A stretch of 64,000 nucleotides of DNA from Nakazawaea peltata (lineage: Eukaryota > Ascomycota > Pichiomycetes > Alaninales > Pachysolenaceae): positions 1,180,468-1,244,467 of the forward strand of contig BCGQ01000003.1 in assembly GCA_001599355.1 (NCBI GenBank), in the 5' to 3' direction. The position numbers and the translations under genes are program-made. A model generated the notes under the pieces. The model was not told the origin of the DNA. It did not search any database and saw only the letters and a list, made by a program, of their open reading frames with translations. Shown piece after piece: positions 5,102 through 63,933 of the stretch (the first letter of the stretch is position 1; the number at the start of each line of letters is the position of its first letter).

Positions 5102-6685
5102 ATGTTGTTCAAGAATTTGGCTCTTGCTTCTTCTTTGGCTTCAGCCCTCGTTGAGGCTTCCACCGAGAGAACCTACTCCACCATTCAACCTTCGTTGACC
5201 GATATTGAGCTGGCTGCCGAGACTGCTGTCACTAACCACGAGACTTCCCACGTCAAGGGTAAGTTGTTCGACAGATTCGTTGTCATCTGGTTGGAGAACA
5301 CCGACTTCGACAAGCTGTACGACAACGACGACATGCAATGGTTGCTGAGTCAAGGTATTGTTTTGAACAACAACTGGGCCTTGTCTCACCCATCTGAAGA
5401 GAACTACTTGGGTGTCGCCGGTGGTGACTACCTTGCCTTGGACAACGACAGATTCATTAGAGTCCCATCCAACTACTCTAACATTGTCGACTTGTTGGAG
5501 ACCAAGGACATCTCTTGGGCTGAGTACCAAGAGCACTTGCCTTACTCTGGTTACCAAGGTTTCGAGTTCCTTAACCAAGAATCAGAGGCGAATGACTACG
5601 TCAGAAAGCACAACCCATTGATTCTTTACGACAACATTGTCGAGAATCCAAACCGTTTGGCCAACATCAAGAACTTCACCGAGTTCGACCTCGACTTAGA
5701 GAGAAAGACCTTGCCTCAATGGATGTTCATCACTCCAAACATGACCAACGATGGTCACGACTCTACCATTGGTGTCGCTGCCAAATGGACCAGAGACTTC
5801 TTGACTCCATTGTTGAACAACTCTTACTTCTTCGACAACACCTTGATCTTGGTTACTTTCGACGAGAACGAAACCTACTCTATTCCAAACAAGATCTACG
5901 GTCTTTTGTTGGGTGGTGTCATTGACGACGCTTTGAAGGGTACCGAAGACTCTACTTACTACGACCATTACTCTGAAATCTCCACAGTTGAATTAAACTG
6001 GGATTTGAACCATTTGGGTAGATTCGATGTCGATGCTAACGTATACTCTCCATTGGCCAACATTACCAACTGGGTTAACAGAGAAGTCGATACCACTGGT
6101 CTTTACAACAATGCCTCTAAGACTGGTTACTTCAACGACGACACCATCCCATTGCCTCTGCCAAACTGTGACGTCATCAACCAAAACGGTAAGCCAATCT
6201 TGCCAGCTATCGAGGCTGTTTGGTCTGCTTCTTGTCACGGTGGAGACAACTCTTACACCAACTCTGCTGCTTCCACTGCCTCCGTTGCTCCAACCACCAC
6301 CATCCCATCTTCCTCTATCGTTACTTCTGCCGTCTCTTCTGCTACCCCATCCTGTGCTGCCCTTGGCACTTCCGTCTCTTCTTTCTTGGAGAACGTTTCC
6401 AAGGAATTCGGCTCTTCTTGGACTCAACAATTGAAGAGTGGTAACAAGCAAGGTTCCTTCCCAGAATGTATCATCATTGAGGATGGTGAGGAAGTTCTTT
6501 GCAGTATTGTCACCTACTTCGAGCAATTGGAGAAGGACATTTTCAAGGGTATTTTCAAGAGAGATGACAACTCTTCTTCTAACTCTACTTCCTCTTCCTC
6601 CACCAACCTGGCTGCCGCTGTCAACACTTTCTCTGGTGTCACCTTGACCGGCTTGGCCTCTGTCTTGTTGTTGCTGCTCTTATAA
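5102..6685 (+). CDS. Secreted GPI-anchored acid phosphatase (phosphoesterase family)
   Basis: 527 residues. A hydrophobic signal peptide (about 1-18) is followed by a phosphoesterase-family domain (PF04185 type, about 45-330) with VVIWLENTDF near the start, HPSEENYLG and GGDY at about 98-110, and TFDENE near 257. This family includes secreted fungal acid phosphatases that release phosphate from organic esters. Ser/Thr-rich stretches and many Asn-X-Ser/Thr sites mark an exported glycoprotein. The C-terminal hydrophobic run (GVTLTGLASVLLL..) after Ser/Asn-rich sequence looks like a GPI signal, so it is probably wall- or membrane-attached. Codon use is very biased (AAC, GAC, TTC, TTG), as in highly expressed genes. 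CTG at 5345-5347 read as Ala gives WLASQG, matching relatives as I remember them. Pho4-like sites upstream suggest phosphate control. Confidence 0.85.
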   Translation: MLFKNLALASSLASALVEASTERTYSTIQPSLTDIELAAETAVTNHETSHVKGKLFDRFVVIWLENTDFDKLYDNDDMQWLLSQGIVLNNNWALSHPSEENYLGVAGGDYLALDNDRFIRVPSNYSNIVDLLETKDISWAEYQEHLPYSGYQGFEFLNQESEANDYVRKHNPLILYDNIVENPNRLANIKNFTEFDLDLERKTLPQWMFITPNMTNDGHDSTIGVAAKWTRDFLTPLLNNSYFFDNTLILVTFDENETYSIPNKIYGLLLGGVIDDALKGTEDSTYYDHYSEISTVELNWDLNHLGRFDVDANVYSPLANITNWVNREVDTTGLYNNASKTGYFNDDTIPLPLPNCDVINQNGKPILPAIEAVWSASCHGGDNSYTNSAASTASVAPTTTIPSSSIVTSAVSSATPSCAALGTSVSSFLENVSKEFGSSWTQQLKSGNKQGSFPECIIIEDGEEVLCSIVTYFEQLEKDIFKGIFKRDDNSSSNSTSSSSTNLAAAVNTFSGVTLTGLASVLLLLLL

Positions 6686-6768
6686 GCAGTTGGCTCTTAT
6701 TTTTATATTTATTTTAATTACAAAAGTTCAATACATTTAGAAGCCTATTTATTATCTTTATATCCCTT

Positions 6769-61234: not shown

Positions 61235-61848
61235 CTCAGATAATACTATATATATTCACAAACGGTCTGTCTTCAATGCTGAAACAAAAGAATTAACTGG
61301 TGATGGCTCAGAGATACAACAAATAATCGGTAAAACAAGCGGTAAATTGAAACTTTCGTTAACTTTAGATCTCCCACTTCAAATATCTCCCAAAAAACTA
61401 ACCTTTTAATGCACTTTTCCTTGTATTATCTCCTTCTATCTCGGCTCTCTTTTCGTCCAAAACAGATTCTCTAACTAATTAACAGAGTTATAGTACAAAT
61501 ATCAAATGAAACCCCGGTTTCTCCGTCGGTCTAACTCTTCAATACACTTGTCGGATACTCTGTGTAGACACTAAGCGCCTCGTCAAATCTGCAACTTCCA
61601 CCTTATGGTTTCCTCCCTTCAATATCATCTCTCATCTTGTCGATCTGCCTCGGATAAAAAATGGGCGAAGGTCGTGTAGAAAGTGATAAAACGGGAGCAG
61701 AGCCGTGGAAGAACATCGTGACACCAAAAAGTGTGGTTGGAGTTTTTTACATCATTACACCAAATGGATCAGTCACCAGTCACCAGTCACCAGTCACTGA
61801 ATCACCTACAAATCAGGGAAATCTACGAAATATTCATTCTGTATATAC
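61235..61848. other. Intergenic: SKY1 promoter and SSE1 3' flank
   Basis: 614 bases. It is AT-rich next to SKY1, with a tandem AGTCACC repeat near SSE1. A 110-codon frame that runs into SSE1 antisense is not a gene. Confidence 0.5.
61771..61797. repeat. AGTCACC 7-base repeat, about 4 units
   Basis: AGTCACC three times plus AGTCAC, about 50 bases beyond the SSE1 stop. Confidence 0.8.
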
Positions 61849-63933
61849 TTACTCCATCTTAGAATCACCATCCAGGTCCTTCTTCTCTCTAGCAGCTCTC
61901 TCAGCAGCCATCTTCTCGGCCAATTGTTGGGCCAGCTTAGACTCTTGCTTAGATCTCAACAGTTGCTTCTTCTCCTCCTCGGCAGCCAAGTAACGACCTC
62001 TAATGATGTTACCGGTAGACAGTAACTCCTCGTATTTGGCGATATATTTGGCTTTGGTGGAATCGTAACCATCATCGTACAACCATTCCTCGGTCTTCAG
62101 CAACAAAGCGGTCAACTTCTCCTTCTCTTCATCAGAAGCAAATGGCAGATATTGATCATCCAATTTACCTCTCAATTCATAGATGTACTCCTCCAAAGCG
62201 TTCTTACGGTCTTCGGTGTCGGCGACCAACTTGTCTTGCATGGTCATGGAGTTCTCCAATTCGGTGAAAGCGGCCAATTTGTCGGCTGGCAAGGAATAAG
62301 AGTCGACTTCGATGGTCAAATCGTTCTTCTTGACCAATTTCTTGACAATCTTGTATTCTGGTTCTTCTTCTTCCTCTTCTTCAGCATCTTCACCTTCCTT
62401 TGGTTCCTTTGGTTCCTTCTCAACAAGTTCCTTGAACTCCTTCTCTTCAACAGTGTACAGTTCTTCAATAGTGTAGAATCCACTTGGGTCGTTTCTCAAC
62501 TTCAACTTAACAGCAATAGAAGATTCACCCTCGTTCAATTCAACACCCTTCAAACTCCATTTAGCAATCTTAGTTGGAGTTCCGGCTGGCAATTCCTTCT
62601 CGTTAGAATATCTCAGCTCGACTTCAAAGTCCTTAGATCTGTACAAGGTGATGATCTTGGTGCTTGGGAAGAATCCACCACGTGGGAAGACCTCCAAATG
62701 GTCGGTGTCTTCATCCTCCTTGTCCCAGTAGTAAGAGACAGAGTATGGGTTGACATCCTCGAACTTGAATGGTCTAACTCTAAGAGTTGGAGAGTGGATG
62801 GCACAAATGAAAGCAGCACCCTTGGCAATGGCCTCGTCTTGGTTCAAAGTGAAAGACAATGGCTTACCAACAACCTCGGCCAACTTAGCCTTGACGGATG
62901 GGACTCTGGTACAACCACCAATGACTTCGACAAAGTCAAGTTCTTCCTTAGTGACACCGGCCATCTCCAACAGTTGTTCGATTGGCTTGTGTAATCTGTC
63001 CAACAATGGTTGAACAAACTCTTCCAATTCCTCACGGGTCAATTGAGAGGAGACATCGACATCGTTCATGACAGACTCAACGTTGAATGGAGCTTGAGCA
63101 TTGGCAGACAAAACCTTCTTCAACTTCTCAGCAGCGGTAAGAACTCTCAGGTACAGCTTTGGGTTCTCTCTGATGTTGATCTTGTACTTACCGATGAACT
63201 CATCGGCAAAGTGCTCGGCAATGGCTCTGTCAAAGTCTCTACCACCGAAATGTTTGTCGGAAGCAGCACCCAAAACCTTCAATTCACCCTTCTTGACAGC
63301 AGCAATGGCAACAGAGTAAGAAGAATGACCAATGTCAACGAAAGCAATCTTTCTCGGTTCATCCTCTGGCAAATCGGTCTTGAAAACACCGTAAGAAACA
63401 GCCAGCAGAGTGACCTCGTTGACGATTCTGACCGGGTTCAAGCCGGCAATTCTAGCAGCATCGGCAGCGGCTCTTCTTTGTGGCTCGGTGTACCAAACTG
63501 GGACAGCAAGACAAATATCGGTGATATTACCCTTGGTCTCATGAGCAGCAATTTGCTTAATCTTGTTCAAGTACATGGCGGTCAATTGAACAGAAGAGAA
63601 CTCCTCTTGCTTACCGGCAAAACGCACCTTGGAACCAACTTGGCCATCGGAATCGACCAAAGCCAGGGTGAAATACTTGTTCTCGGTCTCGAAATCAGGG
63701 TGGTCTGGACCCATACCCAAAACTCTCTTCAAGTTCTCAACAGTGTTCTTCAAGTTGGAGGTCTGTTGGTTCTTACCGCTCTCTCCGATGAAACGGTTCT
63801 TCATACCGAACCCAACGACAGAAGGGGTGGAACGGTTGGAAACTTCGTTGACGACAACGTCGATACCTCTGTTTCTGGCAACAGCAACGACGGTGTTGTT
63901 GTTACCTAAATCTACACCAAATGGGACACTCAT
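61849..63933 (-). CDS. SSE1: Hsp110 nucleotide exchange factor Sse1
   Basis: 694 residues, ATG at 63933. An Hsp70-like ATPase domain ([67 protein letters not shown]) is followed by a beta domain with an acidic loop (about 510-525) and a helical lid. The altered phosphate loop ([10 protein letters not shown]) and [10 protein letters not shown] are Hsp110 markers. Codons 176 and 177 are both CTG where Hsp110/Hsp70 proteins have Ala-Ala (VTAAGVSYG). Sse1 is the main nucleotide exchange factor for cytosolic Hsp70 and a holdase. Codon bias is strong, as in abundant proteins; this explains the long antisense open frames. The promoter is cut by the right edge. Confidence 0.96.

Follow-up and report, generated by a model that had tools for sequence, protein, structure and literature searches.

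The window analysed here is a 64-kb stretch of DNA in which 28 open reading frames (ORFs) were examined. On its minus strand lie genes for a multicopper oxidase (1566..3848; 18 CTG codons), an eIF3f-like MPN protein (6769..7713; 11 CTG), a UTP13 WD40 protein (11653..14046; 25 CTG), an MCP2-type ABC1/UbiB kinase-like protein (14675..16474; 12 CTG), the PRP6 splicing factor (25217..27853; 39 CTG), a UFO1-type F-box protein with a C-terminal ubiquitin-interaction motif (46226..48601; 25 CTG), an AIF-like FAD oxidoreductase (55194..56537; 20 CTG), an SKY1-type SR protein kinase (59063..61234; 18 CTG) and an SSE1-type Hsp110 chaperone (61849..63933; 14 CTG). The plus strand encodes an acid phosphatase/phosphoesterase (5102..6685; 6 CTG), an Hsp30-like seven-helix protein (20006..20911; 9 CTG), an RRB1-type WD40 protein (28084..29631; 9 CTG), a mitochondrial carrier with EF-hands (50096..51565; 13 CTG) and the mismatch-repair protein PMS1 (52492..55233; 21 CTG). 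A scan of genome contigs with the yeast MCP2 protein as query found no relative, and a search for tRNA genes within the 64-kb window found none. The CTG codon was present in all 28 ORFs, at 407 of 15,646 codons. It was most numerous in PRP6, where many of the CTG codons are in TPR/HAT repeats, and it was neither restricted to poorly aligned regions nor absent from conserved stretches. If CTG is read as alanine, it is the commonest alanine codon in the window (407, next to 365 for GCT; RSCU 1.79), and the residue composition becomes 7.27% Ala and 9.52% Leu; with the standard code, Ala would be 4.67% and Leu 12.12%.

An earlier note on this DNA had proposed exactly that reading, a CUG-Ala nuclear code. 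We examined it by three partly independent tests: a comparison of homologue columns that included control codons, Pfam scoring of translations by NCBI tables 1, 12 and 26, and a bacterial panel. All three bore the proposal out, and together they reject both the Leu and the Ser readings of CTG. For the column test, homologues were retrieved with CTG as Ala in the query, and the alignments were then made with CTG masked. We used 17 PDB homologue stretches for nine ORFs, excluding further chains that were nearly identical to those of a protein already used, one designed TPR protein and one reconstructed ancestral COQ8A. With one to three homologues per protein and some proteins represented twice, the resulting 207 CTG columns correspond to 131 distinct codons. 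The homologues had Ala in 75 columns (36%), Ser in 16 (8%) and Leu in 7 (3%). The note had named CTG columns that were mainly Leu or Ser as grounds for giving up its reading; within the window the opposite was observed, with Ala leading. CTG sits at Ala sites of conserved proteins, as in the CUG-Ala code, and not at the Ser sites of the CUG-Ser code (table 12) or the Leu sites of the standard code. With five further stretches included (human Hsp105, the Sse1 tail, human PRPF6 and Chaetomium Utp13, each in its N-terminal part, and human COQ8A), the counts were 83 Ala, 17 Ser and 9 Leu of 232 CTG columns. As controls, GCN codons, masked as a whole class, met Ala in 39% of 231 columns, and the other five Leu codons met Leu in 47% and Ala in 5% of 612 columns. 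In the genes of the window, CTG evolves as GCN codons do, unlike Leu or Ser codons.

Counted by distinct codon, at least one homologue had Ala at 59 of the 131, Ser at 15 and Leu at 6; 76 CTG codons were covered by more than one homologue, and for 16 of these Ala was found in every homologue, for one Leu. Yeast Sse1 aligned to all 14 CTG codons of the chaperone gene, with nine Ala and no Leu, and human Hsp105 had two Ala and two Leu in six columns. Human PRPF6 had Ala at 17 of 33 aligned CTG codons of PRP6 and Leu at one (Ala at 2 of 5 in its N-terminal part), while yeast Prp6 had nine Ala and five Leu in 38 columns. For UTP13, Ala was found at 10 of 25 CTG codons with yeast Utp13 (no Leu) and at 9 of 20 with the Chaetomium protein (one Leu), whose N-terminal part gave 2 of 4. 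The SKY1-type kinase met Ala in Sky1 at 6 of 10 aligned CTG codons and Leu at none, and the eIF3f-like protein, aligned with PDB eIF3f, met Ala at one of seven and Leu at none. The EF-hand carrier gave 0 Ala, 2 Ser and 0 Leu in 10 columns with AAC3, the sole PDB relative listed (E up to 1e-24). No PDB chain was found for the AIF-like protein at E up to 1e-15.

A codon classifier placed CTG in the Ala class, with log-likelihoods relative to Ala of -76.4 nats for Ser, -105.0 for Thr and -205.8 for Leu. Resampling over the nine ORFs (2000 draws) gave for Ala versus Ser a lowest value of -3.1 and a 2.5% point of 27.9. Taken singly, the carrier at 50096 favoured Ser (LLR -4.5) and the multicopper oxidase was near neutral (0.6). 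Ser was the second-best class. We also considered decoding that is mainly Ala with a stable minor share of Ser or Leu, through mischarging or a second CAG-anticodon tRNA. The best mixture for CTG was indeed 88% Ala, 9% Ser and 3% Leu, and shares of 0 to 24% Ser and 0 to 10% Leu were permitted. However, pure Ala lay only 1.29 nats under this mixture and is thus not rejected, and the background of the GCN codons was nearly equal (Ser 9%, Leu 3%). We regard such ambiguous decoding as very improbable.

Pfam scores, given below as bits with CTG as Leu/Ser/Ala, were tallied for the leading domain of each protein. Of the 22 proteins, 17 had their best leading-domain score under Ala, three under Leu (Phosphoesterase, Methyltransf_12 and CTLH) and one under Ser (Fungal_trans), and there was one tie. 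Summed over the leading domains, the score under Ala exceeded that under Leu by 124.1 bits and that under Ser by 58.5. Scores rose toward Ala for Utp13 (134.9/143.2/149.3), ABC1 of the MCP2-type protein (178.3/189.3/195.9), Pkinase of the SKY1-type kinase (136.9/144.0/152.7), Cu-oxidase_2 of the oxidase (142.5/146.2/148.1), Mito_carr of the carrier (204.5/212.6/214.4), Pyr_redox_2 of the AIF-like protein (49.9/52.1/59.3), Bac_rhodopsin of the Hsp30-like protein (42.2/43.2/45.5), and MitMem_reg (69.1/71.2/72.5) and JAB (49.6/51.9/52.3) of the eIF3f-like protein. TPR_14 in PRP6 scored 93.0/82.6/118.1. In PMS1, MutL_C gave 61.3/69.2/70.7 and DNA_mis_repair, contrary to that trend, 67.3/66.3/66.8. 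The ubiquitin-interaction motif of UFO1 reached 24.1 bits with CTG as Ala (Pfam cut-off 21) and went unreported at E 0.001 with Leu or Ser. Among the many secondary WD40, TPR and EF-hand rows, which lie outside this tally, those notably contrary to Ala, together with ATG5_UblA and DNA_mis_repair, were EF-hand_7 and two sub-cut-off WD40 models on UTP13, EIF3I (122.0/118.2/108.6, Leu best) and THOC3 (179.1/221.7/212.7, Ser best).

The bacterial panel comprised 23 CTG columns, of which six had an Ala consensus and none a Leu or Ser consensus. Mean frequencies of Ala, Ser and Leu were 0.30, 0.04 and 0.01 in CTG columns and 0.33, 0.05 and 0.08 in GCN columns. TANGO2 had no match in 70 bacterial genomes, and MATE matched in 4 of 60, too few for columns, so that none was counted in the panel.

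Under the standard code, CTG would be Leu and the Ala-like sites would come from chance or from bias in the earlier note. Three leading domains, among them that of the acid phosphatase, which the note had used as an example, and the 13.4 bits by which EIF3I prefers Leu to Ala speak for it. The single codon that is Leu throughout and the Leu residues of yeast Prp6 and human Hsp105 count against the Ala reading. But Leu occurs at CTG in 7 of 207 columns as compared with 47% for the other Leu codons, falls 206 nats below Ala and is the consensus nowhere in the bacterial panel; its probability is practically negligible. Reading CTG as Ser, as in Serinales and Ascoideales, has in its favour that Ser ranked second in the classifier, that its mixture share may reach 24%, and that it outscored Leu in most leading domains, the last as is expected of any small residue. 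Nevertheless, Ser lies 76 nats below Ala, has 16 columns to its 75, and loses to it in 20 of the 21 leading domains that differ, making this reading extremely improbable.

The individual sites quoted in the earlier note were also inspected. In-frame CTG was confirmed for SSE1 codons 176-177 (63403-63408), two codons of MCP2, PMS1 codons 97 and 817, PRP6 codon 12, Hsp30-like codon 111, UFO1 codon 783, acid phosphatase codon 82 and RRB1 codons 118 and 161, as well as for the pair in the oxidase motif E[CTG]GL[CTG]M (1806-1808 and 1797-1799). With numbering from the first ATG, the MCP2 codons are 223 and 228; the 169 and 174 given previously fit a start at Met55. The description of these positions as family-invariant Ala was overstated. 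It suits SSE1 176/177, where yeast Sse1 has Ala, Ala, human Hsp105 has Ala, Val, and all 30 bacterial Hsp70 loci have Ala; MCP2 223, with Ala in 88% of 34 bacterial UbiB-type loci; and PMS1 97 in the GFRGEA motif, where both Pms1 of yeast and PMS2 of human carry Ala. These sites are fixed or nearly so. The residue varies at MCP2 228 (59% Gly, 35% Ala and 6% Ser in the UbiB-type loci), PRP6 12 (Pro in yeast, Ala in human) and oxidase 681 (Ala in one fungal laccase, Glu in another; both have Ala at codon 684). Acid phosphatase codon 82 does not serve as an Ala example, because its domain scores best with Leu (125.7/121.4/123.2). For RRB1, the enclosing CAF1C_H4-bd domain (53.5/59.4/60.0) disfavours Leu and scarcely separates Ala from Ser, and its WD40 score was 54.6/56.9/56.4. 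PMS1 817, Hsp30-like 111 and UFO1 783 were assessed through whole-domain or whole-motif scores only.

The classifier agreed with the standard code at 52 of the 59 codons tried. CTT, CTC, CTA, TTA and TTG all fell in the Leu class, CTA by 1.2 nats on five columns only. The remaining seven were CTG; TGT, TGG and ATG, for which no class of their own can be built once the codon is removed; and CGA, CGG and ACG, which fell short of the standard class by 0.1-1.7 nats on 6-13 columns. No second reassigned codon was seen among the 59, the six codons other than CTG being without positive confirmation. The window shares with NCBI table 26 (the Pachysolen tannophilus nuclear code) CUG as Ala and CUU, CUC and CUA as Leu (five columns for CUA), and we saw no difference from this Alaninales code.

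The G3-U70 pair is an alanine identity element of tRNA. One member of an alanine tRNA gene family may have changed its anticodon, yielding a tRNA-Ala with a CAG anticodon that would decode CUG, and the ancestral CAG-anticodon tRNA-Leu would have been lost. Since alanyl-tRNA synthetase ignores the anticodon, it would accept a tRNA of this kind; the Discussion of PMC5951914 describes the enzyme as having no need for anticodon bases. CUG was likewise captured by another tRNA in the CUG-Ser yeasts (Serinales and Ascoideales; table 12), according to the same source, although the residue there is Ser and here Ala. That source ties nuclear CUG-Ala to a single Pachysolen, Nakazawaea and Peterozyma clade, and the code has been described before, for a single small order of yeasts. 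Taken together, we consider it about 97% probable that the window is nuclear budding-yeast DNA from Alaninales in which CUG is Ala, read by a tRNA-Ala(CAG), and the other testable codons are standard (table 26). It is very improbable that the organism falls outside Alaninales and that an alanine tRNA took over CUG there independently, for a second time. The code itself suggests placement in this order, probably in Nakazawaea or Peterozyma rather than Pachysolen. Among the comparators examined, chains from S. cerevisiae came closest (Sse1 67%, Sky1 60-64% and Utp13 48% identical).

CTG is abundant here, whereas PMC11540330 describes it as avoided in Serinales and Ascoideales, and its use also differs from the general picture of code-changed yeasts drawn in PMC5951914. 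As the leading Ala codon, free at conserved sites, it is consistent with a long-finished takeover. As the earlier note held, standard-code translation of this DNA is wrong at CTG; in the 28 ORFs it errs at 407 of 15,646 codons, and a functional motif of UFO1, its ubiquitin-interaction motif, goes unreported unless the correct code is used. The code itself is established, and the measured use of CTG, as the leading Ala codon and at conserved sites, may add a little to it.

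The window contained 32 ORFs of at least 150 aa, of which 28 formed the gene set; the other four, each enclosed or largely overlapped by a larger ORF on the opposite strand, were left out. CTG was present in all 28 ORFs, with 2 to 39 occurrences each, and made up 407 of the 15,646 codons (stops excluded). Pfam and PDB searches, on which the family assignments are based, identified a multicopper oxidase, an eIF3f-like protein, UTP13, an MCP2-type ABC1 kinase, TANGO2, a MATE transporter, PRP6, RRB1, ATG5, RIC1, UFO1, PMS1, a SKY1-type SR protein kinase and SSE1. Gene names such as MCP2, RRB1 and UFO1 are putative and follow in part the earlier note. 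Three ORFs of 199 to 239 aa (23273-23872, 48853-49572 and 51570-52214) matched no Pfam family when translated with NCBI table 26, which reads CTG as Ala, at an E threshold of 0.001.

The earlier note had claimed that CTG is read as alanine in these genes, and the CTG codons that it cited were all in frame on read-back. We masked CTG as X, aligned nine window proteins with 17 homologous PDB-chain stretches, and read the homologue's residue under each window codon. The 207 CTG columns held Ala in 75 cases, followed by Ser (16), Gly (14), Glu (12) and Leu (7). The control applied the same masking to all other codons, one at a time, and placed each with the amino-acid class whose columns it matched best. 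The standard residue was returned for 52 of 59 codons, with CTT, CTC, CTA, TTA and TTG assigned to Leu and GCT, GCC and GCA to Ala; apart from CTG, the seven non-standard outcomes were either codons whose own class had been emptied or misses by no more than 1.7 nats on a small number of columns. CTG itself was assigned to Ala, with Ser 76.4 nats and Leu 205.8 nats lower. When the nine ORFs were resampled, the advantage of Ala over Leu had a 2.5% point of 105.5 nats and a minimum of 61.7 in 2000 draws, and that over Ser had a 2.5% point of 27.9 nats and a minimum of -3.1. With the whole amino-acid class masked, the 231 columns of the standard alanine codons (GCN) held 39% Ala, 9% Ser and 3% Leu, practically the profile of CTG (36, 8 and 3%). 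A mixture fit gave CTG as 88% Ala, 9% Ser and 3% Leu, did not reject pure Ala (1.29 nats), and set upper limits of about 10% on Leu and about 24% on Ser. Ala was favored over Leu in all nine ORFs and over Ser in eight, the exception being the EF-hand mitochondrial carrier (50096..51565, + strand), whose only comparator was AAC3. With five further alignments the column total rose to 232, of which 83 held Ala, 17 Ser and 9 Leu, and the log-likelihood ratio in favor of Ala reached 214.4 against Leu and 84.0 against Ser. The masked columns and control codons bear out alanine, and not leucine or serine, as the meaning of CTG.

Bacterial genome searches for tens of sequences, covering two genomes and then samples of one phylum, were tried for five families and gave usable panels for UbiB-type kinases (34 loci), copper oxidases (30) and Hsp70 (30); in the genomes sampled, MATE yielded only four loci, too few for use, and TANGO2 none. 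Among the 23 CTG columns with at least eight sequences, the majority residue was Ala in six, Gly in three, Pro in two, and Val, Thr, Gln, Ile and Lys in one each, seven had no majority, and none had a Leu or Ser majority. The mean Ala share was 0.30 in CTG columns versus 0.33 in GCN columns, and the mean Leu share 0.01 versus 0.31 for the other leucine codons. SSE1 codons 176 and 177, proposed as Ala sites, faced Ala in 30 of 30 bacterial Hsp70 loci. Some other proposed sites did not hold as invariant alanines: at MCP2 codon 228 Gly was commoner than Ala in the bacterial panel, PRP6 codon 12 corresponds to Pro in yeast, and acid phosphatase codon 82 found no support for Ala, the Phosphoesterase domain favoring Leu by 2.5 bits. 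The argument for CUG-Ala is carried far better by the whole CTG set than by picked examples.

Twenty-two proteins were also scanned against Pfam under tables 1, 12 and 26, in which CTG stands for Leu, Ser and Ala respectively (confirmed for tables 12 and 26), and the other six ORFs under table 26 only. Ala gave the highest score for the leading domain in 17 of the 22, Leu in three and Ser in one (Fungal_trans), and one was a tie. Among the larger gains, scores under Leu, Ser and Ala were 93.0, 82.6 and 118.1 bits for TPR_14 of PRP6, 136.9, 144.0 and 152.7 for Pkinase, 178.3, 189.3 and 195.9 for ABC1, and 524.9, 527.1 and 537.5 for HSP70. The leading domains preferring Leu over Ala were Phosphoesterase, CTLH (3.3 bits) and Methyltransf_12 (1.6 bits), and among non-leading rows DNA_mis_repair, EF-hand_7 and ATG5_UblA did so by less than 1 bit. 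In UTP13 (11653-14046), two sub-cut-off WD40 matches were best with Leu (EIF3I; 122.0, 118.2 and 108.6) or Ser (THOC3; 179.1, 221.7 and 212.7), unlike the UTP13-specific domain, which scored best with Ala. The C-terminal UIM of the UFO1-like F-box protein (46226-48601) exceeded the Pfam cut-off with CTG as Ala and was not reported at E 0.001 with Leu or Ser.

What these comparisons directly demonstrate is the evolutionary behavior of CTG. No tRNA genes were found within the 64-kb window. G3-U70 is the identity pair of alanine tRNA, and an alanine-type tRNA would read CUG in this organism too, as in known CUG-Ala yeasts. Pachysolen, Nakazawaea and Peterozyma form a single Ala clade (PMC5951914), table 26 carries the name of Pachysolen tannophilus nuclei, and the NCBI taxonomy places Pachysolenaceae in the order Alaninales. 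Moreover, passages of PMC11540330 describe codon use calculated with the CUG reassignment taken into account, passages of PMC12322030 list 17 Alaninales genomes, and a passage of PMC8629427 states that predicted CUG meaning fits the known distribution in 453 of 462 yeasts. Nuclear CUG-Ala is therefore established, and the code in the window was already known. One codon-usage study, as described in its passages, was performed without the five Ala-clade genomes (PMC6701816).

With CTG read as Ala, it was the commonest alanine codon in the 28 ORFs (407 of 1137; GCT 365, GCC 220, GCA 112, GCG 33), with an RSCU of 1.79 as a fifth Ala codon. In the nine ORFs with homologues, its share was higher inside the homologous stretches (CTG:GCN 136:171) than outside (35:74; Fisher p 0.03). 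It was lower in SSE1 (14/72), presumably a highly expressed gene, than in the rest (393/1065; p 0.002). At 26 CTG per 1000 codons in this one window, about 30 would be expected in a gene of some 1200 codons, the approximate length of a myosin gene, and this tentatively favors Nakazawaea or Peterozyma over Pachysolen as the source. Among leucine codons of the 28 ORFs, CTA was scarce (37 versus CTC 205, CTT 277, TTA 381 and TTG 589); passages of PMC11540330 describe CTA as generally unpreferred across the whole subphylum. The text passages of that paper considered here gave no CTG-as-Ala frequencies, and no claim is made that this usage is new to the literature. The part worth keeping may be the measured use of CTG as the leading alanine codon in the window.
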